Shown piece by piece: positions 23,465 through 57,597 of a DNA stretch of 64,000 nt. The notes beneath the pieces were generated by a model that was given only the letters and a program-made list of their open reading frames with translations, had not been told where the DNA came from and did no database searches. The translations under genes were made by a program, and so were the position numbers. The stretch's first letter is position 1. Every line of letters begins with the position of its first letter. Location of the stretch: the NCBI GenBank assembly GCA_022710185.1, contig JAKLHK010000003.1, positions 62,001 to 126,000 of the forward strand, given 5' to 3'. The DNA is from Bacteroidota bacterium. GTDB lineage: Bacteria > Bacteroidota > Bacteroidia > Bacteroidales > JAGNHN01.

Positions 23465-23486
23465 TTGGGTGTTGGATAAAATACTG

Positions 23487-23519
23487 CCGGCAGGGACGAC
23501 GTCCCTGCCGGTTTTTTTT
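23487..23519 (+). terminator. Rho-independent terminator built on the dispersed motif
   Basis: Two perfect 11-bp arms (CCGGCAGGGAC and its complement) enclose the 3-nt loop GAC and are followed by eight T. The inner part of the hairpin is exactly the dispersed motif. It lies 22 bp after the stop of the dockerin-like surface protein. Confidence 0.92.
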
Positions 23520-23550
23520 GGGACGTCGTCCCAAGACAGACGTCGTCCCT
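23492..23550. repeat. Three dispersed motif copies after the surface-protein gene
   Basis: One forward copy (23492-23506, in the terminator) and two reverse copies (23520-23532 and 23538-23550) fill the gap between the surface protein and aspartokinase, which converge. The last copy ends 3 bp before the aspartokinase stop codon. Confidence 0.9.
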
Positions 23551-23553
23551 CAT

Positions 23554-24810
23554 CTAATCCTTGAGAACAGCCTGGTACATAATCCGCGATCTCTGCTCCA
23601 TCACCACCTCCTGCCCCCGGGTATGCAGCTGGATGTCCTCCTCTGAAAAGCGACGGAGGGTGAGCAATGTAAGATGCTCATTATAACGAATATGGAAGGT
23701 AGGTCCAAGCCTCTCCCCAAGTCCGTCCACAATCCCGGTGCCGTTGTCCAGACAAAGGGAGAAGTGTAAAGCTGACGACTGCATCAGGTTGATATGCAAT
23801 CCCAGGTCGCACAGCGCCCCCATGATGGAATGGACGTGTCCCTCAGAGATAAAGGACATATCCTTGGGGATGAGTGTAAGCAGGATTTGGTCCTTTTTAC
23901 GGATGATGGAGCAGGCCAGGGGGTGCAGTTCAGGGTCTGAGGATATCAAGGTGCCCCTGGCGGCTGGGTCGGAAAATGGCCTGACAAATAAAGGGATGTT
24001 TCTGTTTTCCAGTGGCTTGATGGTGTTGGGGTGTATAACCTTCGCACCATAGAAGGATAATTCTACCGCCTCATTATAGGGCATTTTATCGAACTTGACG
24101 CCAGCCTTCAGCTCATTCGGGTCTACATTGAGGACTCCAGGCACATCCTTCCATATAGTTAATTCACTGGCATCCAGAGCTGATGCAAAGATTGCGGCGG
24201 AGAAGTCAGAACCTTCCCTGCCGAGGGTGACCGTATGGCCCTGCTTATCTGATCCGATGAAGCCAGCGACGACCCAAAGGGCAAGCTGGGCAGGCTCAAT
24301 GCAGTTCAGGATATTCCGTTTCGTCACCTCCCAATCAACGACCGCCTTGCGGAATGGCCCATCGGTGACTACGAGTTGGGCCGCATCAAGCAAGGTGTTT
24401 GGCAGTCCTCTATGGGCAAGATATTGGTGAAGGATGAGGGTGGAAATCTTTTCCCCGTAACTGACCACACGATCGTAAAACGCAGCGTAGGGTAGTTCCC
24501 GGGAGGTGTTGAGCGTTGCATGCAGCGATACTATAGCCTGTTCAAATTGGGCGAAGACCTCATTCTGTCTGGGAAACAGGGCATTAAGAATATTCAGGTG
24601 GTAAGTGCGAAGCCCCTGTAATGTTTCGGAATAGTCCGCTTCGTTATGTGCCGCGGATGCGACCAGCTCAAGGGCATTGGTTGTTTTCCCCATAGCTGAG
24701 AGCACGATAACCAGGGGAGAGGAAGATGCGTCGCGGATGATGCGTTCTACCTGCCGGAAAGAGACGTCGTCCCTCACTGATGCACCCCCGAACTTATAGA
24801 CCTTGATCAT
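23554..24810 (-). CDS. Aspartate kinase
   Basis: Phosphorylates aspartate, the first step to lysine, threonine and methionine. It is a 418-residue monofunctional enzyme with the catalytic N-terminal domain (KFGGASV at 6-12, [22 protein letters not shown] around 190-215, [12 protein letters not shown] around 232) and ACT-like regulatory segments in the last ~140 residues. Feedback control is likely from the ACT segments but the effector is not readable. Residues 13-17 are RDDVS, encoded by the dispersed motif just behind the phosphate-binding KFGGASV; relatives have a KDA-type sequence of equal length there. No other lysine or threonine gene is adjacent. Confidence 0.93.
24762..24774 (-). repeat. 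Dispersed motif copy at the start of aspartokinase
   Basis: AGGGACGACGTCT, extended to the 15-base form ending TCT CT, in frame with AGG as codon 13 (RDDVS). Confidence 0.88.
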
Positions 24811-25958: not shown

Positions 25959-28900
25959 TTGGACAAGAAAGAGCTGATCAGCCGCTTTGCCAGGCATCCT
26001 AAGTTTCAGGAACTGTTTCTGCAGATGGAACAAGGGGAAAAGTTCCATTGCCGTCTGACCGGGCACATGGGGTCTTCACTGGCGCTGGTAGCTGCTTCTT
26101 CCTATCTCAGGTCATCGGCAGATCATTGGTTCATACTCCCGGACCAGGAGGCGGCGGCCTATTTTTACAATGATGTGGAGAGTCTTTTCGATGAGAGTCG
26201 CAAAGACTTGAACAAGAAAAGAGTACTGTATTTTCCCGCCTCCTATCGGCGGAACTTCACCGCTGGGCAGCGCGATAGTGATCAGGTCCTTCAGCGTACA
26301 GAGGTACTGAACCGCATTGGGTCGGATCGTGGACGCTCGCTAATCGTCACCTATCCTGAAGCCCTGGTCGAGAAGGTGATCGGGAGGGAAGAGATACGCG
26401 GGCAGACGCTGGCGTTACGAAACGGGGAAGCGGTGGACCTGGATTTCGTGGCCGATCTGCTTTTTGAGCATGGGTTCGAGCGGGCCGATTTCGTGGTTGA
26501 ACCCGGTCAGTTCGCCTTACGTGGCGGGATCATCGATGTATTCTCCTATGCGGCGGAGTACCCTTTCCGGATCGAGTTTTCAGGCAGTCATATCGAGTCG
26601 TTGAGGTCGTTCGATCCCGCAAGCCAGCTCTCGAGAGATCGGCTTGCGAGCATCTCTCTCTTGCCTGATGTGGAAGGAAGAGGTGAAGGGCAGCGCAAGG
26701 TACCTGTCCCGGAGGCCGTCGGAAGTCTGGCGATCTGGTGGGTGCATGGAGAGCAGTTTATTGCGGAGAGGATGACGGCTGTATTTGAAACGATATGCAG
26801 TCAGTTGCTGCAGAGGGACGACATCCCTCCGACAGACGTCGTCCCTGAAAAGGTATGCCTCGATTTCATGCCCGGACAGGCCCTGATCAAAGCCCTTCAG
26901 AACAATCCTGTCATCGAGTTCGCCCACCACAGCAGTACCGGGAAGGAGATCCGGCTGAACCAGGAGCCTCAGCCCTCCTTCAACAAGAATTTCGATCTTC
27001 TCCTGGCTCACCTCAATACCAATACCAGGGAAGGCGTGGAGAACCTCATCTTCACCGATAATCCCAGACAAGTTGAAAGGATCTACGCCATCGTTGATGA
27101 CGTGAGCGCCCGCAAAGGAGAAGAAGGCGGGTATAGCTTCTCGGTAATCCCCTCCGCTGTGCACGAAGGCTTCACCGATCGTGATCTTGGGCTGGCATGT
27201 TTTACCGACCACCAGATCTTCGACCGCTATCACAGGTTCCGCCTGAGGGACTCCTATCACAGCAAAGAAGCCCTTTCCATCAAAGAGTTGAGCAACCTCC
27301 AGCCGGGCGACTACATTACCCACATCGATCACGGCGTGGGGCGCTTTGATGGACTGGAGAAGATAGAGAATAGCGGACGATGGCAGGAAGCGATCCGTAT
27401 CGTGTATCAGAACAACGATCTGCTTTACGTCAGCATTCATTCTCTGCACCGCATCTCGAAGTATATCGGAAAGGAAGGATCGGAACCCGCGCTCGATAAG
27501 CTTGGCTCCGGCGCCTGGAAAAAGCTCAAGAACAAGACCAAGCAAAGGGTCAAAGACATCGCCAGGGATCTCATCCGTCTGTATGCTGAGCGCAGGGCCT
27601 CAGAAGGATTTTCCTTCACCCCTGATTCCTACCTGCAACATGAGCTCGAGGCGTCCTTCATCTATGAGGATACCCCGGACCAATTCAAGGCGACAGCAGA
27701 TGTGAAAAAGGACATGGAGGCCGGTTTCCCTATGGACCGACTGGTTTGTGGCGATGTGGGGTTTGGGAAGACCGAGGTCGCCATAAGAGCGGCCTTCAAA
27801 GCCGTTACCGATGGAAAACAGGTAGGGGTGCTGGTCCCTACAACCATCCTTGCCCTACAGCATTTCAAAACATTCAGGGACCGGCTCAGGGATTTTCCCG
27901 TTACGGTGGACTACCTCAACCGTTTTAAGCCTGCCCATCAGCAGCGTGAGACCCTGGCCAGGCTCAGGGACGGCAAGATTGACATCCTGATCGGCACCCA
28001 TCGCCTGTTGAGCCAGGATGTAGTGTTTAAGGATCTGGGCCTGCTGGTGGTGGATGAAGAGCAGAAGTTCGGGGTGTCTGCCAAGGAAAAGCTCAAGAAG
28101 ATCAGGGTAAATGTGGATACCCTGACCTTAACAGCCACGCCTATCCCGCGTACCCTCCAGTTCTCGCTGATGGGCGCCCGCGACCTCAGCGTGATCAACA
28201 CTCCTCCGCCCAACCGTCAGCCGGTACAGACCGAATTGAGGGCCTTCGGGGCAGAAGTGATCACCGATGCCATACAATACGAACTGTCCAGAAGTGGACA
28301 AGTCTTCTTCATTCATAACCGGATCCAGAACATTCGGGAGGTTAGCGACATGCTGCGGAAATTTGTGCCAGGCACCTCCGTTGCTGTGGCGCATGGGCAG
28401 ATGGATGGCAAGGAGCTTGAAAGGACCATGCTGGACTTCATCGATGGTGAGTATGACGTCCTTGTTTCTACCACCATAGTCGAATCAGGCCTGGATATCC
28501 CCAATGTCAATACGATCATCATCAACGATGCACAGAACTATGGCCTGAGTGATCTGCACCAGCTCAGGGGCCGGGTCGGACGTTCGAACCGCAAGGCGTT
28601 CTGTTACCTGCTGGCGCCTCCCCTTTCCATTTTGTCAACAGAAGCACGCAAGCGCCTCAAGGCCATCGAAGAGTTTTCCGACCTGGGGAGCGGCTTCAAC
28701 ATCGCCATGCGCGACCTGGATATCCGCGGGGCAGGGAATATCCTGGGAGCCGAACAGAGCGGTTTTATCTCTGAAATTGGCTATGAAATGTATCAGAAGA
28801 TCCTGGATGAGGCCATACAGGAGCTGAAGCAAGGGGATTATAAGGAGTATTTCAGGGAAGAGGGTCAGGAAGATTTTGTCAAAGATTGCGTAATCGAGAC

Positions 28901-38290: not shown

Positions 38291-38342
38291 AGGGACGACG
38301 TCTGTCGGGAGGGACGACGTCTGTCGGAGGGACGACGTCCCT
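38291..38342 (+). repeat. Tandem array of three dispersed motif copies
   Basis: Three forward copies start at 38291, 38310 and 38328, a period of 19 and 18 bp, joined by GTCGG-type spacers. The last overlaps the stop codon of the nuclease gene on the other strand (38341-38343). The array fills the gap between the lipoprotein and nuclease genes, both on the minus strand. Confidence 0.92.
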
Positions 38343-42072: not shown

Positions 42073-43443
42073 ATGAAGTCAATGCGCATTCACCCCATTC
42101 TGCTTCTGCTCTCTTTCACCCTGGTGTTCACCGGGTGCATCAAGAATGAGTTCGATGAGCCACCTGTCCGCACTATCCCGGTAGGCAACATTAAAACCAT
42201 TGCTGAGATCCGTGCCTTGTTTCAGGGTCAGCCGGTGAAGATCACAGAAGATTGGTCCTTGTATGCCGTGGTAACCATGGACGAGCGCTCCGGGAATATT
42301 TATCGCAGTGCCTATATTCAAGACCAGACAGGTGCCATCAACCTTCACTTGAACTCCGCCGGAGGACTTTATCAGGGGGACTCCATCCGTCTGTACCTCA
42401 AGGGAACCGTGATCAGCGACTATTCGGGGATGCTTCAGATCGACAGTGTGGACGTGGACGAGCATGTGGTAAAGCAGGCCACCCTGGTAGACGTCGTCCC
42501 TCAGACCGTCACTATTCAGGAACTCACCACCGGTTTCTATCAGGCAAGGCTCGTTCGCCTCGACAGTGTTCAGTTCAAAACTTCAGAATTGGGGCAAACC
42601 TTTGCCGATCCCGTCCTGCTTTACTCCGAGAACCGGATGCTGGAGGATTGCGATAAGAATGAGATCATTGTGAGAACCAGTGGCTATGCCAACTTCGCCG
42701 GGGAACTACTTCCCGAAGGAAGGGGGTCGCTCGTAGCAGTGGTTAGCGAATATAGCGGAGACCTTCAGCTCTACATCCGATCATATGCAGAGATCGATAT
42801 GACCGGCCCCCGCTGCGGAGGAGGAGTTGGACCTCAGGAGCTTCTCCCTGTCAATAATCTTCGTGCCCTGTTCTCTGGAACCGCTACAAACGTTCCAGCA
42901 AACAAGAAGATCCGCGGAGTAATCATTTCCGATCGGGCAAATTCCAACCTCACCGGGCGCAATGCCTTCATTCTTGATGAAAACGGGGATGGCATTGCCC
43001 TCAGGTTTGAGGAAACGCATAACCTGAATCTCAACCAGGAAGTGGAGATCAATGTTTCCGGAATTGAGCTTTCGGAATACCAAGGCTTGTTGCAGCTCAA
43101 CAATATCCCGAACGACAATGTGGCTGTGATCGGGACGGTTGCTGCCCCGACACCCCTGAATGTACATATCGAGGATCTTATCGATGACTTTGAAGCGTAT
43201 GAAGCTAAACTGGTTCGTCTGACGAATGTTACAATCTCCAAAAGCGGTGGGTATACCGACTATAAGTACACCTGTATTCTGAATGACGGTACAGGAGAGA
43301 TAGATATGTACACCACGGATTATGCCTCATTCGCAAATACCAACTTCCCGACGTATCCGGTCCATATCACCTGTATCGTATCACAGTACACAGATCCTCA
43401 GGTTCTTATAAGGAATCTGTCGGATGTGGTGCAAGCCAAATGA
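42073..43443 (+). CDS. DUF5689-domain lipoprotein
   Basis: A 456-residue lipoprotein (lipobox LVFTGC, Cys22) probably on the outer membrane beside the TonB receptor, whose gene ends 15 bp upstream. It carries DUF5689-type units with OB-like strand order: residues ~40-230 (AEIRALFQG to YIRSYAEIDM) and a second ~260-455 (NNLRALFSG to NLSDVVQA), each with an inner duplication. Family members are found in Bacteroidota next to TonB receptors and nucleases, but have no proven ligand. Residues 140-144 (DVVPQ) are encoded by the dispersed motif in reverse orientation. Confidence 0.78.
   Translation: MKSMRIHPILLLLSFTLVFTGCIKNEFDEPPVRTIPVGNIKTIAEIRALFQGQPVKITEDWSLYAVVTMDERSGNIYRSAYIQDQTGAINLHLNSAGGLYQGDSIRLYLKGTVISDYSGMLQIDSVDVDEHVVKQATLVDVVPQTVTIQELTTGFYQARLVRLDSVQFKTSELGQTFADPVLLYSENRMLEDCDKNEIIVRTSGYANFAGELLPEGRGSLVAVVSEYSGDLQLYIRSYAEIDMTGPRCGGGVGPQELLPVNNLRALFSGTATNVPANKKIRGVIISDRANSNLTGRNAFILDENGDGIALRFEETHNLNLNQEVEINVSGIELSEYQGLLQLNNIPNDNVAVIGTVAAPTPLNVHIEDLIDDFEAYEAKLVRLTNVTISKSGGYTDYKYTCILNDGTGEIDMYTTDYASFANTNFPTYPVHITCIVSQYTDPQVLIRNLSDVVQAK
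42489..42501 (+). repeat. Dispersed motif copy inside the DUF5689 gene
   Basis: AGACGTCGTCCCT in frame, encoding V-DVVP. The same reading phase (DVVP) is used by the reverse copy in mfd. Confidence 0.8.
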
Positions 43444-44310: not shown

Positions 44311-45648
44311 ATGTTGATTCAAAATGTAGTAATCGTCAATGAGGGTCGCTCTTTCGCAGGGGGCCTGCTAATTGAAGGAGAAATAATAGTTGCTGTGCTT
44401 GAAGGGGATGCCTTACGGCAGGCGCTACTCCAATATCAGGGTGAACGTTTTGATGGGGGGGGGGGCTATCTTATGCCAGGCCTGATTGATGACCAGGTTC
44501 ATTTTCGTGAGCCTGGACTTACGCACAAGGGAGATCTGTCAACAGAATCCCGGGCGGCTGCAGCCGGAGGGATCACCTCTTTCATGGAAATGCCGAATAC
44601 CCAACCGCAGACGCTGACCCAGGGATTGCTGGAGGAGAAGTATGCGTTGGCGGCAGAGCGCTCCGCGGTTAATTATTCCTTTTACATGGGGGCCTCCAAT
44701 GATAACCTGGAGGAGGTAAAGAAGACTGATCCCACGCGGGTATGTGGGGTTAAGGTGTTTATGGGGGCCAGCACAGGAAATATGCTGGTTGACAATCCAA
44801 GTACGCTGCAAGGGATATTTGCCGAGTCACCATGTCTGGTAGCGGTGCATAGTGAAGATGAGGGGATTATCCGGAGGAATATGGAGCTGTATTCCCTCAG
44901 GGACGACGTCTCTTCGCATCACCATTCCCTTATCAGATCCAGGGAGGCATGTATTCGCTCCACAGAGAAAGCGATGGCATTGGCAGCGAGAAATAATACC
45001 CGGCTTCATGTTCTACATGTTTCAACAGCGGAAGAAGCGCTGATGATGACCGAAGGCCCCGTAAGGGGGAAACGGATCACAGCGGAAGCCTGTGTACACC
45101 ATCTGTGGTTCTCATCGGAGGATTATGCCCTGAAAGGCAATTGGATCAAATGGAATCCATCTATTAAGGATCCGAAGGATAGGACGGAGATTCGTAATGC
45201 TCTAAAAAACAATCGTCTGGATATAGTAGCGACAGACCATGCCCCACATACCATCGAGGAGAAGTCCAGGCCATATCTCCAGGCCCCTTCGGGCGGACCG
45301 TTGGTGCAGCATTCTCTGCTGGTCATGTTGGAGCTGGCATTGTTGGGCGAGTGGTCTGTCGAGTTCGTGGTGAATAAGATGTGTCATGCCCCTGCTGACC
45401 TCTTCAGGATAAGGGACAGGGGATATATTCGTGAGGGTTATAAGGCGGACCTTGTCCTTGCGGCTAAAACCTCTCCCTGGAGTGTTACCCCGGATCAGCT
45501 GCTATACAAATGCAAGTGGTCTCCTTTCGATGGGGTCAGCTTCCAACACCGGGTGGCAGCAACATGGGTGAACGGTGTAATGGTGTATGATGGCAGGGTA
45601 GTGAGGGACGACGTCTATGGGCAGCGATTGCTATTTGACTCCGTTTAA
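44311..45648 (+). CDS. pyrC: Dihydroorotase
   Basis: Cyclises carbamoyl aspartate in pyrimidine synthesis, cytoplasmic. About 445 residues from the ATG at 44311 (MLIQNVVIVNEG). Metal and substrate residues are in DDQVHFREPGLTHKGD, HSEDEG, VLHVSTAEEA and DIVATDHAPHTIEE, matching the Porphyromonas enzyme, where the first His of the usual HxH is Gln. Two copies of the dispersed motif encode RDDVS (197-201) and RDDVY (432-436). The first falls in a loop that varies in length among relatives, the second near the C-terminus. An 11-G run (44455-44465) lies near residue 50. The stop codon overlaps another motif copy. Confidence 0.94.
   Translation: MLIQNVVIVNEGRSFAGGLLIEGEIIVAVLEGDALRQALLQYQGERFDGGGGYLMPGLIDDQVHFREPGLTHKGDLSTESRAAAAGGITSFMEMPNTQPQTLTQGLLEEKYALAAERSAVNYSFYMGASNDNLEEVKKTDPTRVCGVKVFMGASTGNMLVDNPSTLQGIFAESPCLVAVHSEDEGIIRRNMELYSLRDDVSSHHHSLIRSREACIRSTEKAMALAARNNTRLHVLHVSTAEEALMMTEGPVRGKRITAEACVHHLWFSSEDYALKGNWIKWNPSIKDPKDRTEIRNALKNNRLDIVATDHAPHTIEEKSRPYLQAPSGGPLVQHSLLVMLELALLGEWSVEFVVNKMCHAPADLFRIRDRGYIREGYKADLVLAAKTSPWSVTPDQLLYKCKWSPFDGVSFQHRVAATWVNGVMVYDGRVVRDDVYGQRLLFDSV
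44899..44911 (+). repeat. Dispersed motif copy inside pyrC (loop)
   Basis: AGGGACGACGTCT, extended to the 15-base form, with AGG as codon 197 (RDDVS). Confidence 0.88.
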
Positions 45649-45714
45649 GGGACGACGTCTATAGGTAGCGCATGCTGATTGACTAGTCTGCAGCGCTTTG
45701 AAGGGACGACGTCT
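45604..45714 (+). repeat. Duplicated motif units at the pyrC end and beyond
   Basis: Forward copies at 45604, 45648 and 45702. The first two head similar ~38-44 bp units (motif, TAT, GG, AGCG, TGCT, TTGACT), one coding the last residues of pyrC and one just after its stop, so this looks like an old tandem duplication. The third copy lies 37 bp before the next gene. Confidence 0.85.
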
Positions 45715-45751: not shown

Positions 45752-46210
45752 ATGGGCAATGAGCAGAATCACAACCGCCATGGTTTCATGTCCACGATGC
45801 TGATCGCAATAATCACTTCCAGTGCGATAGTGGCTTCGTGTCAGGGTAAGTTGGAAATGAAGGTTGTGGAGCAGTGGGAAGATGGGACAACGAAAACAGC
45901 CCAATACTATCGTTATCACGATGAGGTTAGAATCCAGGTGTCGGAAAGGCATTACTATCCTGATGGTCAGATACGTATGGAGGGAGGGTTAATGGGGGGA
46001 AAACGTCATGGCAAATGGAAGTCATACTTTGAGAATGGGGAAATGTGGAGCAGGGGTGTCTATGAAAATGGGCTGAAAGAGGGTCCGTGGATTGTATACT
46101 ACCCCGATGGTAATGAACATTATAAAGGGACCTATCATAAGGGTGAAAAGGTAGGGAGGTGGCAGTTTTGGTCCAGGGATGGGTCAGCCGTATTGGAAGA
46201 AACCTATTAA
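45752..46210 (+). CDS. MORN/YwqK-like lipoprotein
   Basis: A 152-residue protein with about four to five MORN_2 (toxin-antitoxin YwqK-type) repeats: YYPDGQIRMEGGLMGGKRHGKW, YFENGEMWSRGVYENGLKEGPW, YYPDGNEHYKGTYHKGEKVGRW (each cited in part). The N-terminus has a lipoprotein signal ending IVASC (Cys30); an in-frame ATG at 45788 gives a shorter leader. These repeats form a beta-meander that often binds partners or lipids; function here is not known, and I see no adjacent toxin. Upstream and downstream spacers are occupied by the dispersed motif. Confidence 0.72.
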   Translation: MGNEQNHNRHGFMSTMLIAIITSSAIVASCQGKLEMKVVEQWEDGTTKTAQYYRYHDEVRIQVSERHYYPDGQIRMEGGLMGGKRHGKWKSYFENGEMWSRGVYENGLKEGPWIVYYPDGNEHYKGTYHKGEKVGRWQFWSRDGSAVLEETY

Positions 46211-46214
46211 CGTA

Positions 46215-46319
46215 GGGACGTCGTCCCATCATTGACAGACGTCGTCCCATCATTGACAGACGTCGTCCCTATTCCCATCATGGACAGACGTCGTCCCATC
46301 ATGGACAGACGTCGTCCCT
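46215..46319 (-). repeat. Five-copy tandem array of the dispersed motif
   Basis: Copies of GACGTCGTCCC start at 46217, 46238, 46259, 46287 and 46308. Spacing is 21, 21, 28 and 21 bp, with ATCATTGACA or ATCATGGACA between them. The array lies directly after the MORN lipoprotein stop and before the convergent S4 gene. Given as minus strand because AGGGACGACGTCT reads on that strand. Confidence 0.95.
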
Positions 46320-46383
46320 ATTCCGTTCATCTCAGCCTTGCTTATCGCGGATGAACAGGCAGCGGTCCAGTCACAGATCCATT

Positions 46384-46776
46384 TCAAGATATATCTTTAA
46401 CCCTCCCGATGTTCCTGCGCTCCTTTTTGGTTGGTCGCCCGCTACCCTTGTCGCGTCGCTCATAATTCATTTCTTTGAGCATAAGGATGCGCTGTAGTTC
46501 TTCTTTTGGGGTAATGTCATGATAGCATTCGCGGGCAATGGAGGCTGATACCCTTGTGTCAATCACCCGAATCACCTCAATCTGGCGCGTGATGCCACCA
46601 TACCTGATGGAGTAGTGTTCTCCTGCCTGTACTTCTTTTGAGGGCTTCACTGGCCCATGGGCTGATGAAACCCAACCCTTTCGGCATACTTCACTGGAAA
46701 TGGATCGTGATTTGAACAGGCGAATTGACCATAGGTACTTGTCAATTCGCACATTGTCAGTGTTTTCAGACGTCAT
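46384..46776 (-). CDS. S4-domain RNA-binding protein (Hsp15-like)
   Basis: A 130-residue protein with an S4 RNA-binding domain ([20 protein letters not shown], cited to 20, through [15 protein letters not shown]) and a basic C-terminal tail ([16 protein letters not shown]). This is the layout of heat-shock protein 15, which binds stalled 50S subunits carrying a peptidyl-tRNA. It overlaps the upstream der gene by 4 bp (ATGA type), so it is probably translated with it. Confidence 0.88.
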
Positions 46777-48077
46777 TTCTTGCGGAAAAATATCTGAATT
46801 GGAACTCCGCTGAACTCAAATCGGCTTCTTATCTGATTTTCAAGGAACCGCTTGTAAGGATCCTTGACCTGCTGGGGATAATTGCAGAAAAAGGCGAAGG
46901 CTGGACTATGTTTGGGGAGTTGGGTAATGTATTTTATCCTGACATAGTTGCCTCGATAGCTTGGAGGCGGAGTTTCAGCGATGGCTGGAAGTAGCTCTTC
47001 ATTCAGCCGGGAGGTGGGAATCTTTCGCATCCTGTTCTGGTAAACAGCCATGGCTGCTTCCAATACTTTCAGCACCCTCTGTTTTTCCTTAACAGAGATG
47101 AATATGATGGGAATGTCGGTGAAGGGGGAAGTCCTGGATAATATCCGCTGTCGGTACTCCTCATGTGTGCGGTTGTCCTTCTCAATCAGATCCCATTTGT
47201 TTACTGCTATGACCAATCCTTTACTGTTCCGCTCGATGAGTTGGAGTATACTTAGATCCTGGCTTTCAATTCCTGATGATGCATCAATCATCAGTACACA
47301 GACATCGGAATGCTCAATTGCCCTGATTGAGCGCATTACAGAGTAATATTCGATATCCTCGAATACCCGGGACCGCTTTCGTAGACCCGCTGTGTCAACC
47401 AGCACGAAGTCGAACCCAAATTTCTGATATCGGGTATATATGCTATCACGCGTAGTGCCAGGCACATCAGTAACGATATGCCTTTCTGTATCCAATAATG
47501 CATTTATCAGCGATGACTTTCCGACATTAGGTCGACCGACAACTGCAAAACGAGGCAATTCAGGTTCCTCCTCTTCCTCGGTGTCATTCATAAGGCTGAC
47601 CACTGCATCCAGGAGATCTCCGGTACCATGACCGTTTATTGAAGAAACAGGCCAAACCTGCCCCAATCCCAGACGGTAAAATTCTTGTGCATCTCCATGG
47701 AGTGCTGTGTTGTCTACCTTATTGGCTACCAGGAACACCGGCTTCCCGCTTCTTCGCAGCACATCTGCGACATCCTCGTCCATAGGGGTCAGGCCTGCAA
47801 TGCTATCCACAACAAAGAGGATAATATCCGATTCCTGGACTGCGAGGTTGACTTGTTTTCGTATTTCAGATTCAAAGGCATCATCCGAACCGATGATGTA
47901 GCCCCCGGTGTCGATTACGGAAAATTTCTTACCGTTCCAGTCGGAACTTCCGTAATTACGGTCCCGGGTCACGCCACTGATCTCATCTACAATGGCCTCT
48001 CTCATACCAACAAGACGGTTGAAGAGTGTTGACTTGCCTACATTCGGTCTTCCTACTATTGCTACAATACTGCTCAT
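46773..48077 (-). CDS. der: GTPase Der (EngA)
   Basis: An essential GTPase of 50S ribosome assembly with two tandem G domains. First P-loop [14 protein letters not shown] (~8-20), switch DTGG, NKVD; second P-loop [14 protein letters not shown] (~180), [13 protein letters not shown]; then the C-terminal KH-like domain ending IQIFFRKK. 434 residues is the usual length. The era gene (also a ribosome-assembly GTPase) lies 45 bp upstream on the same strand, and the S4 gene overlaps downstream, so the three make a ribosome-assembly run. Confidence 0.97.
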
Positions 48078-48122
48078 CAGATGGATTGTGGGAAATTCTT
48101 CAGTGCGGCAAAGGTAAGGTTT

Positions 48123-49004
48123 TCAGAGGGGGTTGTAGCCAAACCATCGGAGTTGCTTGGGGTTGTCTCTCCAGTCCTTGATCACCTTCACCTTCAGTTC
48201 CAGATGAACTTTCTGGTCAAGGAAACCTTCGATCGATCGGCGGGCTTCTATTCCGAGGCGTTTTATTGCCTTGCCCGCATTTCCGATGATTATTGCTTTC
48301 TGACTTTCTCTTGATACCACAATTGTTGCGTAGATTCTGACCAGAAGGCGGTCCTCAATGAAATCATCAATAATAACTTCCGCTGAGTATGGAATTTCCT
48401 GTTGATAGTGTAGTAGTATCTTCTCTCGAATTATTTCCGATACAAAGAAACGTAGGTTTCTGTCCGTTAATTCTTCTTTATCGAAGTATGGAGGGGACTC
48501 AGGAAGGAGATCCAATATCCGCGCTTTTAGCCAGTCCAGATTGAAACCATAGAGCGCGGATATAGGGATGATGCTTGCTTCAGGAAACATATCACTCCAG
48601 TGGGCAATATCCCTTTCAACTGAAGCCTGATCGGAGAGGTCAACCTTGTTGAGCGCAATGATCAGCGGGATCTGGTCATGAAGCAGTTTTCCTGTATGGT
48701 TTGCGTCTTCCCTGGTGTCGTCTCTTGTAACAACCCATAGATAAACATCCCCATCTTCGATGGCTGTGTTCACATACTCCATCATGGACTCCTGAAGAGG
48801 GTATTTTGGAGTGATTACCCCGGGGGTATCGGAGAATACGATCTGGTAATCATCCCCATTCACAATTCCCAGGATTCTGTGTCTGGTTGTTTGTGCCTTG
48901 GGGGTTATTATTGACAATCGTTCTCCCGTCAGGGCGTTCATGAGCGTGGATTTACCTGCGTTGGGGGCCCCCAGGATATTGACGAAGCCGGCTTTATGGG
49001 TCAT
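48123..49004 (-). CDS. era: GTPase Era
   Basis: A GTPase that binds 16S rRNA near its 3' end and helps mature the 30S subunit. G domain: GAPNAGKSTLMNAL (~12-25), DTPGVITPKYPLQ, NKVDLSD; C-terminal KH domain with QKAIIIGNAGKAIKRLGIEA. 293 residues is normal. It starts 92 bp from the divergent initiator tRNA gene, whose promoter lies in that gap. Confidence 0.97.
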   Translation of the reverse strand: MTHKAGFVNILGAPNAGKSTLMNALTGERLSIITPKAQTTRHRILGIVNGDDYQIVFSDTPGVITPKYPLQESMMEYVNTAIEDGDVYLWVVTRDDTREDANHTGKLLHDQIPLIIALNKVDLSDQASVERDIAHWSDMFPEASIIPISALYGFNLDWLKARILDLLPESPPYFDKEELTDRNLRFFVSEIIREKILLHYQQEIPYSAEVIIDDFIEDRLLVRIYATIVVSRESQKAIIIGNAGKAIKRLGIEARRSIEGFLDQKVHLELKVKVIKDWRDNPKQLRWFGYNPL

Positions 49005-49028
49005 TCGGAATTTTTTGTCGTATACCTC

Positions 49029-49059
49029 TTGTCTAACAAATAAACAAAATATATCTTTG
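49029..49059 (+). promoter_or_regulatory. Promoter of the initiator tRNA gene
   Basis: TTG (49029-49031), a 20 bp spacer and TATCTTTG (49052-49059) match both Bacteroidota promoter elements at the ideal distance. The tRNA starts 38 bp downstream of the -7 box. Confidence 0.75.
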
Positions 49060-49096
49060 CATCCCCATTGAAGATACTTGTATTAATTCAAGATAC

Positions 49097-49168
<72 letters not shown>

Positions 49169-49173
49169 CATGT

Positions 49174-49204
49174 AATTCCCGGTGCGATGCGCCGGGAATT
49201 TTTT
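49174..49204 (+). terminator. Terminator of the initiator tRNA gene
   Basis: AATTCCCGG and CCGGGAATT form a 9-bp stem around a 9-nt loop, followed by a run of T. It starts 6 bp after the tRNA. Confidence 0.88.
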
Positions 49205-49218
49205 ATTCCCTTATCCTT

Positions 49219-49233
49219 AGGGACGACGTCCCT
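49219..49233 (+). repeat. Dispersed motif copy upstream of the RAYT-like gene
   Basis: AGGGACGACGTCCCT, the near-palindromic form, 99 bp before the transposase ATG and 15 bp after the tRNA terminator. Confidence 0.88.
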
Positions 49234-49331
49234 CCCTCACTCACTCACGGGTTCCAGGGCTCTATTCCCGAAATTTTTGTCCGTTTTACTACCCCCAGAA
49301 CGTCTAATTCTATATCGAAAAACATAGAGTT

Positions 49332-49916
49332 ATGCCTTCAAAGAAGTATACAACACCAATAAGGGAGGGAAGAGTCTTTCATATCTTTAATCGCGGGATC
49401 AACCATCAGGATGTATTTCTGTGTGATGAGGACAAAAAGTGCTTCCTGAATAGGGTTCGGAAGTACCTGTCTGATTATGCAGATATCCTTGCATACAGCA
49501 TACTAGACAACCATTACCATATCCTTGTGCGTATCAAGGAAGGTAACGACCCATCAAGCTGCTTCTCAAAGCAGTTTGCAAAGCTGATATTGTCCTACAC
49601 CTATTACTATAACCGAAAGTACGGTCATTCAGGACCAATCTTTCACCGATGCTTCAAGCGGCTGGAAGTCAACACTCAAGACTATCTTCGTAAGGTCTTT
49701 TGGTATGTTAATGCAAACCCAGCTCACCACAACTCAGCAGCAGACTATAGGAATTATGGCTTTAGTTCACTTGCGTGTTATCTGGGAGGTAAGCCCGACG
49801 GCTTGACTTCACACAGCCTGGTGGCAGAAATCTTTGGTTCACGTCGGTCATTACTGGATTTCTTAGAAGGCTCTCACGATGTATTGAGCCTGGGGATTCT
49901 CACGATGGAAGGATAA
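49332..49916 (+). CDS. RAYT-like Y1 (HUH) transposase
   Basis: A 194-residue protein of the IS200/REP-associated tyrosine transposase (Y1_Tnp) family. It has the family start REGRVFHIFNRG, the metal-binding HUH motif in DNHYHILVRI (His-Tyr-His), the middle block YYYNRKYGHSGPIFHRCFKR and, after it, a Y1-type tyrosine in DYLRKVFWYVNANPAHH, which would be the nucleophile. RAYTs cut and join single-stranded DNA at hairpin-forming repeats and are thought to spread REP elements. There are no flanking IS ends or partner tnpB. It lies between the initiator tRNA terminator and the cyclase gene, with one motif copy directly upstream. Normal RAYT size; no sign of decay. Confidence 0.88.
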   Translation: MPSKKYTTPIREGRVFHIFNRGINHQDVFLCDEDKKCFLNRVRKYLSDYADILAYSILDNHYHILVRIKEGNDPSSCFSKQFAKLILSYTYYYNRKYGHSGPIFHRCFKRLEVNTQDYLRKVFWYVNANPAHHNSAADYRNYGFSSLACYLGGKPDGLTSHSLVAEIFGSRRSLLDFLEGSHDVLSLGILTMEG

Positions 49917-49939
49917 GCAACATTAACAGTTCGATGGGA

Positions 49940-50578
49940 TCAGAGAATGACTCTGGCGACGGCCCTGACAGGAGCACCGTCTGCTGATTTTACAGCGATT
50001 GGAAAGCATAGTATTTCCACGGGCTTATCGATAATCTCCTCCAATCCAGTAAGGTTCTCGATGATTAATACCTCCTTCATCATCAATATCTTATGGCAGT
50101 TGAGCGCTTCAGATTCTATTGGATCTGGGGAAATGGTATCCATCCCAACACCTCGAATAGTTCTTTCTGCAATCCACCGGCATAAATCGGGACTTAATAC
50201 TGGATAGTCCATGTATTTTGGGGTGCCCCAGTATTGGGACCAGCCGGTACAGAAGAGGATAAAATCTGCGTCCCCTATGAATCCTTCATAGGCTGCAACC
50301 ACTGATAATCCTATTTCGCTTGCATTATTCCTGCAGTCTATGGTTATCGCTTTGCCATGGAATGAACCGAGAGAATACTCATCCAGTAGCTTCCCTCCTT
50401 GAATGATGTGTCCAGGGGCGTCGATATGAGTGCCCGTATGCAGATGCATTGTTAGCTTTTGCTCTGAATAACCATCCTTCTCCACACTGTGGATCTGTTC
50501 AATCCGGGGCATAGGTGTTCCGGGGTAGAGACTCATGCCGGATGCGATAGGATGGCTAAGGTCTAAATATCGGTGCAT
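49940..50578 (-). CDS. Cyclase-family (kynurenine formamidase-like) hydrolase
   Basis: A ~212-residue metal-dependent hydrolase of the cyclase/formamidase family. It begins MHRYLDLSHPIASGMSLYPG, has the metal motif HTGTHIDAPGHI and ends with EILCFPIAVKSADGAPVRAVA. Members include kynurenine formamidase KynB and carbamoyl or isatin hydrolases; the substrate is not determined. The ATG at 50578 is used; the frame extends to 50746 but those residues are not conserved and contain the repeat copies. The region between this gene and the divergent aldo/keto reductase holds a motif pair and a strong promoter. Confidence 0.88.
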   Translation of the reverse strand: MHRYLDLSHPIASGMSLYPGTPMPRIEQIHSVEKDGYSEQKLTMHLHTGTHIDAPGHIIQGGKLLDEYSLGSFHGKAITIDCRNNASEIGLSVVAAYEGFIGDADFILFCTGWSQYWGTPKYMDYPVLSPDLCRWIAERTIRGVGMDTISPDPIESEALNCHKILMMKEVLIIENLTGLEEIIDKPVEILCFPIAVKSADGAPVRAVARVIL

Positions 50579-50611
50579 CGGTGCTGATTTGAGCTCCGAA
50601 GTTAGCAAACA

Positions 50612-50672
50612 GTAAGCAGGGACGACGTCCCAAAGTTTAGCGTCCGCTTGTAAGCAGGGACGACGTCCCAAA
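50612..50672 (+). repeat. 38-bp direct duplication containing two motif copies
   Basis: GTAAGCAGGGACGACGTCCC starts at 50612 and again at 50650, with the 3 following bases also identical (23 bp), a 38 bp period. It lies 34 bp upstream of the cyclase gene ATG. Confidence 0.9.
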
Positions 50673-50730
50673 ATTAAACCTACACTTGGGGGATCGTTTG
50701 TTGTTCTGCCTGAACAGACGATGAATATGT

Positions 50731-50761
50731 TTGCGCTGCAGTGCATGGGAAATTAACTTTG
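50731..50761 (+). promoter_or_regulatory. Promoter of the aldo/keto reductase gene
   Basis: TTG (50731-50733), 20 bp, TAACTTTG (50754-50761): both Bacteroidota elements at the standard distance, 43 bp before the ATG. Confidence 0.72.
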
Positions 50762-50804
50762 CAAGGAAACATGCGCATGATAACCCATAATCAATGATGA
50801 TTCA

Positions 50805-51638
50805 ATGGACCTGACATTACATTCAGACTATACACTCAATAACCAGGAACGAATACCCGTATTGGGGTGCGGATTCTTCAAGGTTCCCGACGGACATCAG
50901 ACTATCGATGCTGTCCTAGATGCATTAGCACTGGGTTATCGGCTCATAGACACTGCCTCTGTATACGGAAATGAACGCTCGGTAGGCGAAGCAATAAAAA
51001 GGAGTGGTATAAATCGAGATGAGATCTATGTTACCACTAAGTTATGGAATGAAGATCAGGGATATGAGCAAGCAAAGCGTGCGCTGGAGGGCAGCCTGAA
51101 GAAGCTGTCGATGACGTATGTAGATTTGTACCTTTTACATTGGCCAGTAGCAGGTAAGCGCCAGGAAAGCTGGCGAGCCATCGAAGATCTACATGATCGT
51201 GGTTTCTGTAAGTCTATCGGTGTGAGCAATTACTTGAAGCCTCATCTTGTGGAATTACTTATGCACTGTCGCGTAAAACCTGTGGTCAATCAGCTTGAAA
51301 TCAGTCCATTCAATTATCTTTCCCGTTTGGATACAATTCAGTTCTGCAGAAAGAACGATATCCATATTGAGGCCTATAGCCCCTTAACCAAGGGACTGAA
51401 ACTTTCAGACCCTCGTTTGCTCAAGATTGCGAGAAAGTACTACCGTTCTCCTGCGCAAGTCTTACTAAGGTGGTCGTTGCAGGAAGGATTCACTGCAATC
51501 CCAAAGTCATCAGGCAAAGAACATCTGCTCGAGAATTCCAAGGTATTTGACTTTTCGCTTTCAATTAGTGACATGGATCTTCTTTCAGCAATGAACGAGA
51601 ACCTGACAACGGGTTGGAATCCTGAGGATCAGGCATGA
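50805..51638 (+). CDS. Aldo/keto reductase
   Basis: A 277-residue NADPH-dependent (beta/alpha)8 reductase. Catalytic residues are recognisable: Asp in LIDTASVYGNE with the acid Tyr, Lys in VTTKLWNEDQGYE, and His in LLHWPVAGKR. The cofactor block IPKSSGKEHLLEN is at the C-terminal side. It matches the diketogulonate reductase/prostaglandin synthase group; substrate unknown. Its own promoter and ~190 bp of motif-containing spacer precede it. Confidence 0.93.
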   Translation: MDLTLHSDYTLNNQERIPVLGCGFFKVPDGHQTIDAVLDALALGYRLIDTASVYGNERSVGEAIKRSGINRDEIYVTTKLWNEDQGYEQAKRALEGSLKKLSMTYVDLYLLHWPVAGKRQESWRAIEDLHDRGFCKSIGVSNYLKPHLVELLMHCRVKPVVNQLEISPFNYLSRLDTIQFCRKNDIHIEAYSPLTKGLKLSDPRLLKIARKYYRSPAQVLLRWSLQEGFTAIPKSSGKEHLLENSKVFDFSLSISDMDLLSAMNENLTTGWNPEDQA

Positions 51639-51710
51639 ACAGCTGAAACATTCTGGCGTGGGGGTACCTATTAGGATCCTCGAGAATTAATTAATGTGAA
51701 GTTGTCCCAT

Positions 51711-51723
51711 AGGGACGACGTCT
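51711..51723 (+). repeat. Dispersed motif copy after the aldo/keto reductase
   Basis: AGGGACGACGTCT followed by ATT; a decayed opposed copy sits right before it, so the two could form a hairpin. Confidence 0.85.
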
Positions 51724-51802
51724 ATTGACTTCAACCGACCTTGCTAACATGCTTATGTGGAAAAACATTTTAGGTATTCCTCGCACCCCCATCTTCAAAC
51801 CC

Positions 51803-51810
51803 TATCTTTG
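51803..51810 (+). promoter_or_regulatory. Possible -7 box for the T9SS type B gene
   Basis: TATCTTTG matches TAnnTTTG; no -33 TTG at the usual distance. A ~95 bp leader would follow. Confidence 0.4.
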
Positions 51811-51907
51811 TTGTTAATAAAAGGTGAAAAATGTTGTTACTGGATGAGGAATGGTTTCATTAGGAAGTGAATAGCTCTGCTTCGTCAATGCAACCTGACT
51901 GTTCCAA

Positions 51908-53956
51908 ATGATCCGGAGCATTGTGAAATTGTATCGCGATAATAAATATCCAAGGCCCTTCACCAGGATGGTTCTGGCAGGACTTATGTTCGTTTTCGGT
52001 CAATTTCTTGTATCAGGACAATGCAATATTCAAATTTGTATCGATACAACACCCCTGGACTCAATTGAAATTTGTTTAGGTGACTCGCTGAGTATTTCTG
52101 CCACAGGGGAGTGCATATTGCTATCTGAATCGTTTGACAATATGGCTTTCGGGTCAACTGAATGGATCTATTACCCTCCGAATATTCAGTATACCAACCC
52201 TTGCATGAGCAGTGCCAACGGTAGTTCTTATGCATGGTTCGGAGCAGCATGCCCACCTACCAGAGAGATAGTTACCAAGGACTTTGACCTCATGGCCGGA
52301 GGATATATATCATTCGATCTGAGGTATGGGCTACAAGGGGCAAATACACCCTGTGATGGTCCTGATGCGATGCGGGAAGGAGTATCTCTCCAATATTCAA
52401 CAGATTATGGAGATAACTGGCATGATATAGCGTATTTCGCTCCAACGGGTAGCGTTTTACCCTCAAATCCCTTCACCACGCTTCCGACAACCTTTGGACC
52501 GACTATGTTCACGTCCTGGGGCAACTATGTTTTCCAGATACCGGCCGGAGCATGTACACCACATACACGAATACGATGGGCTCAGTACTATATTAACTAT
52601 TATAATGGCCATTTTGATGATAGTTGGGGAATCGATAATATCTTAATATCCAGATCTATAGAGTTGGATACCCGATGGGATTTCGGGTCAGATACCACCT
52701 CTCCAGGGTTTGTTCATCCTACCGGGGATAGTGTGTTCATTGCCTACCTATTGGACTATCATTTCCCCTATGATACCATCGCTTCGGATACGCTGGCAGT
52801 TTGGGTACACCAAATGCCGGAATTTGATTTCCTTATGGACACGAACAGAATATGTCTGAGGGACTCACTTTCTATACACCTGACTGGCGCATATGCCTAC
52901 CAATGGAGCAATGGCTTGCTGGGGAACGCCGTGACTGTGTCGCCAAGCGCCGATGCTCTATTCACGGTAACAGGAACCGATGATATTGGTTGTTCCTCAG
53001 AAGATTCATTATGGATTTATGTAGAACCCTTGCCGGTAATTCATTTGACAGGGGATACGGTTTGTGCGGGGGATACGGCAATCCTGAGTGCATCTGGTGG
53101 TGTGCGATATGAATGGAGGGAAGGTGATACCCTGGCCTCAATACAGGTGGTGCCCCAACACAGTACCATTTATCATATCACGGTTACAGGAGCTAATAAT
53201 TGTAAAGACACCGGCAGTGTGTTATCATACGTATGGCAGCTTCCGCAAGGCACATCCTCTGAAGATACTACTATTTGTTTTGGCGGCGAGGTCATACTCT
53301 GGGCATCAGGAGGGGTGGAATACCAGTGGAGCGATGGTGCCCATACTCCCTCAATCACCGTTTCTCCGAAAATGGACGAATTATTCTTTGTGACGATCAC
53401 TGATGATCATCAATGTGCAGTGAGGGATTCCGTCCTTGTTCGGGTTAATCCTTTGCGTGAGGTCTTGCTGGAGGCCAATCCTGATACGGTCTGCAGAGGG
53501 ACGTCGTCCCTAATTAATGCGTTGGGAGGAGTTGAGTACATATGGAGTACTGGGGCGTATGGATCACAAATCGAAGTATGGCCTGGTTCTCCCACAGTAT
53601 ATCATGTAACCGCAACTGAGACCTACGCCGGGTTGACGTGTATGTTGACCAATTCAATATACCTCTATGTGGAAGAGTGTAATACTTTACACATGGCCAA
53701 TGCCTTTAACCCGGAAGGATACACAAATGTTTTTAAGCCGATCGGGAACTTCTTCAGCATTAGCGATTATTACTTTGCCATATACGACCGTTGGGGTAGA
53801 ATGATCTTCGAAACCCACAATTGGGATGAGGGTTGGGACGGCAGAATCCATGGTGCACCAGCGCCAAATGGAGCCTATGTATACCTTGTTAAGTTCACGA
53901 AAGAGTATGTAGATCAGACCTTTGAGAGGATAGGGACAGTAACGGTGATACGATGA
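51908..53956 (+). CDS. T9SS type B (gliding-motility CHU_C) surface protein with PKD/Ig-like repeats
   Basis: A 682-residue exported protein. The signal peptide is ~residues 19-37 (MVLAGLMFVFGQFLVSGQ). A domain at ~60-250 (SFDNMAFGSTEWIYYPPN, DSWGIDNILIS) is laminin-G/jelly-roll-like. Then 3-4 repeats of ~75 residues each start DTVC and run to YEWR or YQWS (for example GGVEYIWSTGAYGS). The C-terminal ~85 residues, from NAFNPEGYTNVFKPIG to GRMIFETHNWDEGWDG and PNGAYVYLVKF, form the type B sorting domain. It should be exported by T9SS, and adhesion is a possible role. One repeat contains the dispersed motif in frame. Confidence 0.88.
   Translation: MIRSIVKLYRDNKYPRPFTRMVLAGLMFVFGQFLVSGQCNIQICIDTTPLDSIEICLGDSLSISATGECILLSESFDNMAFGSTEWIYYPPNIQYTNPCMSSANGSSYAWFGAACPPTREIVTKDFDLMAGGYISFDLRYGLQGANTPCDGPDAMREGVSLQYSTDYGDNWHDIAYFAPTGSVLPSNPFTTLPTTFGPTMFTSWGNYVFQIPAGACTPHTRIRWAQYYINYYNGHFDDSWGIDNILISRSIELDTRWDFGSDTTSPGFVHPTGDSVFIAYLLDYHFPYDTIASDTLAVWVHQMPEFDFLMDTNRICLRDSLSIHLTGAYAYQWSNGLLGNAVTVSPSADALFTVTGTDDIGCSSEDSLWIYVEPLPVIHLTGDTVCAGDTAILSASGGVRYEWREGDTLASIQVVPQHSTIYHITVTGANNCKDTGSVLSYVWQLPQGTSSEDTTICFGGEVILWASGGVEYQWSDGAHTPSITVSPKMDELFFVTITDDHQCAVRDSVLVRVNPLREVLLEANPDTVCRGTSSLINALGGVEYIWSTGAYGSQIEVWPGSPTVYHVTATETYAGLTCMLTNSIYLYVEECNTLHMANAFNPEGYTNVFKPIGNFFSISDYYFAIYDRWGRMIFETHNWDEGWDGRIHGAPAPNGAYVYLVKFTKEYVDQTFERIGTVTVIR
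53497..53511 (+). repeat. Dispersed motif copy inside the T9SS type B gene
   Basis: AGGGACGTCGTCCCT, encoding GTSS within DTVCRGTSSLIN. The sister repeat has DTVCAGDTAILS at the same place and length. Confidence 0.8.
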
Positions 53957-53994
53957 AAAGACTTTCATTCTAGATCGGAGCATCAAGGACTAAG

Positions 53995-54795
53995 TCACCG
54001 ATTCTTCTCCAGGAATTCTCGTACAATACTAACCAAATCGTCTGCTGCTTCCAGATGCCCCATATGCCCGGTGTTGGCTAGAATTTGAACCGCTATATTT
54101 GGAGAAAGTGAAGATTGTTGGATTATTTTTTCGACAGGAATCCGAGAATCTCGATCACCCCCTATGAATATGACGGGAATATCTGTTGATTCAAGTAGGT
54201 CCATGGAGTCCCTGCGCTCACGCATTCCCTTAATTGCAGCGATAATGGCGTCCGGTTGCATCTTCTCAGCATTGACCCTGAGCTCATTAATGCGTTGATC
54301 AAGGCGTTTCAGATTTTCAGGTGCGAACAATCCGTCAATGAATGAGTAGAGAAACTCTCTTCTGTCATGCTTGATGATCTCAATGGCCCGCTGACGGTTT
54401 TTGAGGGTAGCTGCATCGTCCCCTGATGCATGCGAATGAAGCAGAATTAATCCGGACAATTTTCTGTTATATGTGCGCAGATACTGAAGAGCCACATAAC
54501 CACCCATTGAGTGACCAATAAATGTTGCTTCCGGAATGGACTCTCTCTCCATTACCAGGTTTGTGAGCATGGCCATGAAGGCCATGCTATGAGTAGAAGC
54601 GAATGTGGAAGTGCGACCGTGTCCTGGCAGATCAATGGCAATGCATCGGTAATCCTGCTGCAATTTGATAATCAGGTCTTCCCACATTGTGGAAGACTCA
54701 AGGAAGCCATGAACCAAGAACAGCACAGGGCCATTTCCTTCGCTGTCCAAGTAATGGATCCTCCTCTCACGAAACGCGATCGATTTAGTTTTCAT
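53995..54795 (-). CDS. Alpha/beta-fold hydrolase
   Basis: A 266-residue hydrolase with the nucleophile elbow GHSMGGY (Ser), the oxyanion block FLVHGFLESSTMW, the acid in GGDRDSRIP and the catalytic His in TGHMGHLE. The closest known types are carboxylesterases and BioH/MhpC-like enzymes; the substrate is not readable. It starts 88 bp downstream of the aminopeptidase P gene on the same strand, with an inverted pair of motif copies between them. Confidence 0.9.
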   Translation of the reverse strand: MKTKSIAFRERRIHYLDSEGNGPVLFLVHGFLESSTMWEDLIIKLQQDYRCIAIDLPGHGRTSTFASTHSMAFMAMLTNLVMERESIPEATFIGHSMGGYVALQYLRTYNRKLSGLILLHSHASGDDAATLKNRQRAIEIIKHDRREFLYSFIDGLFAPENLKRLDQRINELRVNAEKMQPDAIIAAIKGMRERRDSMDLLESTDIPVIFIGGDRDSRIPVEKIIQQSSLSPNIAVQILANTGHMGHLEAADDLVSIVREFLEKNR

Positions 54796-54823: not shown

Positions 54824-54902
54824 AGGGACGACGTCTATTCTGGTAGAAAATGAAACTGAAGGATAGACGTCGTCCCTTTCACGTCAGACAGACGTCGTCC
54901 CC
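54824..54902. repeat. Inverted pair and third motif copy at the aminopeptidase P end
   Basis: Forward 54824-54836 and reverse 54865-54877 have 16-bp complementary arms (AAGGGACGACGTCTAT) around a ~25 nt loop. A third copy (reverse, 54890-54902) lies at the end of the aminopeptidase gene and encodes its last residues (GTTSV). Confidence 0.9.
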
Positions 54903-56295: not shown

Positions 56296-57597
56296 TTATT
56301 TGGATTTTCTGTTGGATAAAATCAGGGCTTCAATTTCGTCAGCGGCACTGGGAATGCCCTCACAAAGGTCGAGAGGCGCCGTCCCTACGAGAATATCATT
56401 TTCAATTCTTATGCCGATGCCTTCTGACGGTAGATATAGTCCAGGCTCGCATGTAAGCACCATCCCTTCTTCAAGAGGCCTGTCAGGTATGACTACATCG
56501 TGGACATCCAATCCGAGATGATGGGTGACGCCATGGACCATAAATGGCTGGACCGCTTGCTGAATGCGGGAAGGGGTAGAGACGTCGTCCCTGTTGAGCA
56601 GGCCGACCCCCACCAACTCCTCCGCCATCAGCTGCCGGGCAACCTGGTTGATCTTCTCTATGGTCCCTCCAGGCACATAATGCTCCCTGAGCGCAAGCAT
56701 GACGCGATGGACTGCATTGTAGAGTTCCCGCTGTCGCGGACTGTAGCGGCCTGAAACCGGGATAGTCCTTGTGATGTCAGCCGCATAATGATACCACTCT
56801 GCACCAAAATCCATCAATAGCAGCTCCCCCTCACTGCACTCCTCCGCATTGCGGATGTAATGCAGGATGGTGGCATTCTTCCCGCTGGCCACAATGGGGG
56901 GATAGGCCGGCCCAACCGACCCCTGCCGGAGCATTTCGTGCACCAGCTCAGCCTCCACCTCATATTCGCGGATTCCAGGACGAATCATATCCAGTACTCG
57001 ATAAAACCCATCGCTGGTGATGGCAAGGGCCTGACGTAGCATGTCCAATTCGTCGGCATCTTTAACCATCCGAAGCCTGGTGACCAAAGGGGCCACCCTG
57101 CCGAAATGGTGCAGAGGGAAGCGCTCGCGCATGGCCTTTGCGAAGCGCAGGTCCCGGTAGGGAACCTCAGTGTTGAATTTCGGGTATTCGTTCAGGTTCA
57201 GCAGGATTTCTCCGGCTTCATTGACCAGTCTGGAAAGCATACCGTCCAGCTCGCCCAGGTAACGGACATTGGCGATCCCCGAAATCTCCCGGGCACGCTC
57301 AGGTGTGAGCAGAGGCCCTGACCACTGTTCTGTCACCGGGTCCGGATCGCTGATGAACAGGATCTCGCGCATGGAAGTACGGGGGTGCGAAGGAAAGATC
57401 AGCAGCACGCTTGCTTCCTGCACGATCCCGGTCAGATAGAACAAGTCACTCTGCTGATGAAATGTGTAGGGCAGGTCCCCATTGCGAGGCATCAAGTCAT
57501 TCGAATTGAAGATCGCCAACCCCCCCCCTGGAATCAGGGCAGCCAGTCGGGTCCTATTGCGGGTATGAAGACCTGCCAGGGTCAGGGACGTTCTCAT
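56296..57597 (-). CDS. Second aminopeptidase P-family enzyme (M24)
   Basis: A 433-residue paralogue of the downstream gene with the full ligand set: LLLMDFGAEWYHYAAD, HGVTHHLGLDVHD, LTCEPGLYL, GIRIEND. It may be an Xaa-Pro peptidase with a different preference. A motif copy encodes RDDVS at 336-340, between LLN and TPSRIQQ, in a region where relatives vary. A 9-G run (9 C on the plus strand, 57530-57538) lies near codon 22. A -7 box for this gene was not found. The downstream paralogue starts 8 bp later, so the pair is one transcript. Confidence 0.92.
   Translation of the reverse strand: MRTSLTLAGLHTRNRTRLAALIPGGGLAIFNSNDLMPRNGDLPYTFHQQSDLFYLTGIVQEASVLLIFPSHPRTSMREILFISDPDPVTEQWSGPLLTPERAREISGIANVRYLGELDGMLSRLVNEAGEILLNLNEYPKFNTEVPYRDLRFAKAMRERFPLHHFGRVAPLVTRLRMVKDADELDMLRQALAITSDGFYRVLDMIRPGIREYEVEAELVHEMLRQGSVGPAYPPIVASGKNATILHYIRNAEECSEGELLLMDFGAEWYHYAADITRTIPVSGRYSPRQRELYNAVHRVMLALREHYVPGGTIEKINQVARQLMAEELVGVGLLNRDDVSTPSRIQQAVQPFMVHGVTHHLGLDVHDVVIPDRPLEEGMVLTCEPGLYLPSEGIGIRIENDILVGTAPLDLCEGIPSAADEIEALILSNRKSK
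56580..56592 (-). repeat. Dispersed motif copy inside the second aminopeptidase gene
   Basis: AGGGACGACGTCT, extended to the 15-base form, with AGG as codon 336 (RDDVS). It is the last clear copy before the right end of the window. Confidence 0.88.

Follow-up and report, generated by a model that had tools for sequence, protein, structure and literature searches.

Why does one 11-bp sequence occur five times in tandem between two genes of a Bacteroidota bacterium? The array lies in a window of 64,000 nucleotides (the whole stretch of DNA analysed here) and can be described as follows:

46217..46318, minus strand: five-copy array of GGGACGACGTC (minus-strand reading), with TGTC and a spacer, defined by exact matching and TRF

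GACGTCGTCCC is found exactly at positions 46217, 46238, 46259, 46287 and 46308, in steps of 21, 21, 28 and 21 bp, and the TRF call covers 46217-46318. The array is flanked on one side by a MORN-repeat gene, whose stop codon is at 46210, and on the other by the 3' end of an S4-domain gene; the copy adjoining that stop codon is a full palindrome, GGGACGACGTCCCT. The first-pass annotation had listed the five copies with these positions and steps, all of which proved exact on checking the sequence, as well as two similar spacers, which are present as ATCATTGACA and ATCATGGACA. Its suggestion of local tandem duplication gains support, since the spacer is common to the units of one array and differs among arrays. 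It had further taken the 21-bp step to mean that a protein would bind all copies on the same face of the helix. This idea did not hold: other arrays of the same core show steps of 17, 18, 19, 20, 22, 24, 25, 35, 38, 41, 44 or 54 bp, so that the copies come to lie on different helical faces, and we rejected helical phasing. The common feature of the arrays is the hairpin-forming core rather than the phase. An origin of the array from heptamer repeats was rejected as well: its own steps are multiples of 7, but those of the other arrays are not.

Perfect heptamer tandem arrays are plentiful in this genome: there are 51 in the stretches read, where period 6 accounts for 6 arrays and period 8 for 1. 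They were sampled on the window's contig (C23) outside the repeat sector and at loci from C2, C8, C13, C15, C19, C20 and C21; AGATATC, ACTAGCC and AACATAG are recurring units, and similar short heptamers in tandem occur in cyanobacteria and Beggiatoaceae.

The 11-mer family beyond the five copies, with many further arrays and single copies, had escaped the first-pass annotation. Allowing at most one mismatch we counted 38 matches in the window, while shuffled windows gave a mean of 0.86 and a maximum of 4; 28 of the copies in the window are exact (read as GGGACGACGTC). The whole genome (3.28 Mb) holds 80 exact copies compared to 25 for the reversed control. Of the exact copies 42, forming 19 loci, are found within 30 kb of position 111.6 kb on the 212-kb contig, the site of a RAYT gene. 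The rate in the rest of the genome predicts 0.56 loci in this interval, and the loci have a mean offset of 1.8 kb from the RAYT gene. Outside this sector the 11-mer is mostly single, intragenic and near the control level, with the exception of a nine-copy array with the same core and the spacer ACCCCC (L055:9917-10085). The latter continues right up to where contig C15 ends, so arrays of this kind are probably points at which the assembly breaks. The features of the window other than the five-copy array are:

23493..23549, no strand assigned: three copies where two genes converge; the first supplies the stem of a hairpin (23486-23512) that resembles a terminator
24763..24773, minus strand: copy in lysC, RDDVS where the sister species has KDAPS, no indel
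26815..26845, no strand assigned: inverted pair, one copy degenerate, in mfd, where 6 codons are inserted compared with the sister species
38292..38339, plus strand: three-copy array at a distance of 1 bp from a gene 3' end, with steps of 19 and 18 bp
42490..42500, minus strand: copy in a lipoprotein CDS, DVVP where the sister species has NTEP, no indel
44900..44910, plus strand: copy in pyrC, aligned beside a 2-codon gap
45605..45713, plus strand: three copies, steps of 44 and 54 bp, across the pyrC 3' end
49219..49233, plus strand: complete hairpin of 15 bp, AGGGACGACGTCCCT, roughly 100 bp upstream of where the RAYT gene starts
49332..49916, plus strand: gene for a RAYT/TnpAREP-like Y1 HUH transposase, 194 aa, with H61-Y-H63 and Y125
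50619..50667, plus strand: two-copy array, step of 38 bp, close to where a minus-strand gene begins
51712..51722, plus strand: single intergenic copy
53500..53510, minus strand: copy in a T9SS-type CDS, GTSSL where the sister species has GTSAT, no indel
54825..54901, no strand assigned: inverted pair and a further copy at the pepP 3' end
56581..56591, minus strand: copy in a second pepP, RDDVS where the sister species has SQDAM, no indel

Twelve of the 19 loci are extragenic and seven lie in coding sequences. Copies show random orientation, and they are arranged mostly head-to-tail, with about four inverted pairs. Ten loci are multi-copy with different spacers and one common core, which single copies share too; at 45605..45713 two diverged direct duplicates have retained the core. 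A plain minisatellite, that is a chance sequence amplified by slippage with other copies being coincidental, would fit the identity of spacers within arrays and their difference between arrays, as well as a genome with many other short tandem repeats, heptamers in particular. It is contradicted already by the dispersed copies: ten multi-copy loci with different spacers and single copies all carry one core where 0.56 loci are expected, and coding sequences hold 12 copies compared to 0.02 by a codon shuffle that ignores amino-acid order. We thus consider such an origin very improbable, and the shuffled-window, locus-expectation and codon-shuffle counts led us to reject a chance origin of the family altogether. 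Among Rfam elements tRNA was the sole match, and matches to the exact 11-mer in the literature, judged by titles and abstracts, looked unrelated.

The full element is a 15-bp odd palindrome, AGGGAC-GAC-GTCCCT, for which DNA folding predicts a 6-bp stem with a 3-nt GAC loop. Most array units consist of AGGGACGACGTCTGTC or AGGGACGACGTCTATC together with a few spacer bases; in several of the arrays one full palindrome forms the end. A single derivative unit is predicted not to fold, but two neighbours together would give one longer, bulged hairpin.

The gene at the centre of the cluster encodes a protein that matches NCBIfam NF047646 (REP-associated tyrosine transposase) with an E-value of 1.9e-11 and 44 bits, which is under the 80-bit cut-off. 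H61, H63 and Y125 are invariant across 12 aligned homologues, and the homologue profile matches the TnpAREP structure PDB 4er8 (E 7.2e-7). A RAYT with both the HUH motif and the catalytic tyrosine is hence present in the same genome as the repeat. The full copy upstream of the gene has no counterpart within about 700 bp downstream. A second, unrelated RAYT (L061, C16:40741-41307) has its own hairpin, CGCGTCACAGACGCG, at three spots; in addition contig C40 ends in a shortened RAYT copy with 98% identity, and contig C52 begins with dense hairpin arrays (L213/L214).

We propose, with a probability of roughly 0.7, that the array represents an atypical REP expanded in tandem, made up of the 15-bp mini-hairpin and its derivative AGGGACGACGTCTRTC, and that the RAYT/TnpAREP-like HUH transposase encoded 3 kb away most likely uses this REP as its recognition element. 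The analysis itself shows the hairpin potential, the copy excess, the clustering around the RAYT gene, the intact HUH and tyrosine residues, analogous repeats at homologous RAYT genes and the absence of both repeat and RAYT from the sister species. Recognition by the RAYT, nicking, movement and any effect on the host we infer from this arrangement. Each copy may thus still be a target for a protein, most plausibly for the resident RAYT acting on single-stranded DNA. The RAYT would recognise and nick the hairpin in single-stranded stretches such as those at replication forks; nicking would seed new copies, mostly no farther than about 30 kb from the RAYT gene, and slippage or nick-and-rejoin at direct repeats would give rise to head-to-tail arrays. 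Gene 3' ends, where most arrays are found, would be sites of little harm. Points against the proposal are that only one copy adjoins the RAYT gene, on its upstream side, that the RAYT is under the NCBIfam cut-off and that the GTAG/GGAG tag is missing.

The same-genus genome G001, the sister species used here, contains 0 copies of the 11-mer and no RAYT gene, while gene order relative to it is conserved on C14, over the left part of the sector. Copies in lysC, the lipoprotein gene (42490), the T9SS-type gene (53500) and the second pepP (56581) align with the sister species without indel, and in the three compared base by base 5-6 of the 11 bases of the motif differ. As several coding copies align in this way, simple insertion fails to explain them. 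Either the family is young and moves in a manner able to replace sequence, or its core is under selection. RAYT-driven copying of the REP almost only into about 30 kb on either side, overwriting coding sequence at constant length, for example by annealing of single-stranded REP DNA at the fork instead of cut-and-paste insertion, is a tentative and rather doubtful extension of the proposal. Some repeat copies encode C-terminal residues, namely VRDDVYGQRLLFDSV in PyrC (45605-45648) and GTTSV in PepP (54884-54901).

Core conservation bears on a different explanation, in which the 11-mer is the selected site of a DNA-binding protein organising the 55-kb sector in the manner of matS or parS, arising by point mutation in genes and by array multiplication between them. 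The core is nearly invariant, with 42 exact and 3 one-mismatch copies in the sector and no excess of two-mismatch copies, and neighbouring units differ at 1 of 99 core positions compared to 12 of 86 in the rest (p 0.0007, the units not being independent). The near-absence of decayed copies counts against the REP reading and could reflect selection for a binding site; the indel-free copies in genes and the coincidence of the repeat sector with a GC valley point the same way. matS is likewise a 13-bp odd palindrome of similar look that is clustered regionally, whereas the repeats here occur in arrays, in a genome without a MatP family protein and on a contig without a dif-like site. The random orientation of the sites and the core array on contig C15 also speak against a protein-organised sector, and such a sector does not predict the same hairpin architecture and array layout, with other sequences, at homologous RAYT genes. 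Altogether we regard this explanation as unlikely. A replication terminus with matS-like sites was rejected, since MatP, a dif-like site and a clear skew change are all missing.

The elements might instead act mainly as RNA, as 3'-end hairpins or terminators. Five of the 19 loci are located between convergent genes, several are at most 7 bp from a stop codon, and the copy at 23493 is the stem of a terminator-like hairpin. At the five-copy array a terminator-like site was looked for at the locus and none was found, orientation relative to genes is mixed, seven loci are intragenic, and an RNA role leaves the confinement to one sector unexplained. We therefore give this possibility very little weight.

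The G+C content of the window shows a valley from 23000 to 60000 with its minimum at 46000-54000, going from about 0.58 to 0.45 and back, which roughly matches the repeat sector; GC3 of the genes in it falls from about 0.75 to 0.5. This drop in GC and GC3 over about the same sector would be expected if the sector had been imported from a relative carrying the motif genome-wide. However, genes inside and outside the sector look similar in their identity to G001, gene order is conserved, the GC change is gradual and the motif is numerous in none of the relatives searched, which makes an import highly improbable.

Turning to RAYT homologues of other Bacteroidota, recurring 5-3-5 hairpins were found in 19 of 49 flanks, compared to 3 of 84 control stretches and 0 in shuffles, and GAC was the commonest triloop (7 cases). 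The homologue loci L161 and L182 carry AAAGATGACATCTTT with the same layout and the centre GAYGACRTC. In G047, a genome of the same order, direct tandem arrays of GGGACTCCATCCC with steps of 20-22 bp are found within about 10 kb of its RAYT gene; this layout reproduces that of the window with another sequence. Copies near the RAYT make up a large share of the total in G207 (8 of 14), G340 (5 of 8) and G238 (3 of 3), and a marked local excess in G017 (18 of 94). At many RAYT homologues the repeats flank both sides, unlike at the RAYT of the window. One repeat copy of G017 lies inside the RAYT gene itself (L205, G017:C665:41625).

How REPs move is so far a matter of inference, not of observation. 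With a single REP family that is restricted to the vicinity of one RAYT, missing in the sister species and present in readable arrays, this genome bears a footprint of the mechanism. Such a pattern predicts seeding over short distances and offers a compact locus for testing REP movement.

Canonical REPs are tagged with GTAG/GGAG, come as inverted doublets and are scattered across the genome (Bertels and Rainey 2011, PMC3116915). The family described here resembles REP/REPIN and RAYT systems (Nunvar 2010, PMC2817692; PMC3116915) in its short palindrome, its many mostly intergenic copies and a resident RAYT with a copy beside the gene, and tandem REP arrays are described there too. It differs in that the GTAG/GGAG guide tetranucleotide is missing from the repeat contexts inspected, the stem is shorter, and head-to-tail copies, not REPIN inverted doublets, are the main unit. 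Instead of random dispersal over the genome, which we did not see, the copies are restricted to a stretch of about 55 kb surrounding the RAYT. CGTC-tagged REPs have an 8-9 bp stem, a 4-5 nt loop and a CCA tail and are reported not to be associated with transposase genes (Di Nocera 2013, PMC3733652). The core in the window likewise has CGTC followed by GTCCC, but a 6-bp stem, a 3-nt loop and no CCA tail, and so falls outside that definition. A global search with the doubled core yielded 68 stretches, mostly from GC-rich genomes, and those inspected were CGTC-like repeats of Massilia. At L125, L129 and L091 these also yield tandem halves containing GGGACGACGTC plus a spacer, in steps of about 19-22 bp, and represent an independent case of REP-half arrays. 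The closest described kind, with membership by description only, is TnpAREP subclass 2.6, found mostly in Bacteroidetes and characterised by atypical hairpins without GT[AG]G (Quentin 2018, PMC6006769). Common to both are a Bacteroidota-type RAYT, the missing GT[AG]G, weak short hairpins and copies elsewhere in the genome. The description of the subclass gives no account of confinement around a RAYT or of 20-bp head-to-tail arrays, and the HuH-to-Y distance is 62 in the window's RAYT against a subclass median of 82. Searches that demand GTAG or a long stem thus miss the mini-REPs of Bacteroidota. Given the missing tag, the mostly head-to-tail arrangement and the local distribution, yet the nearness to subclass 2.6, we call the family a variant of the REP/RAYT kind with presumed recognition and movement, unusual in its confinement, its head-to-tail arrays and its indel-free copies within genes.
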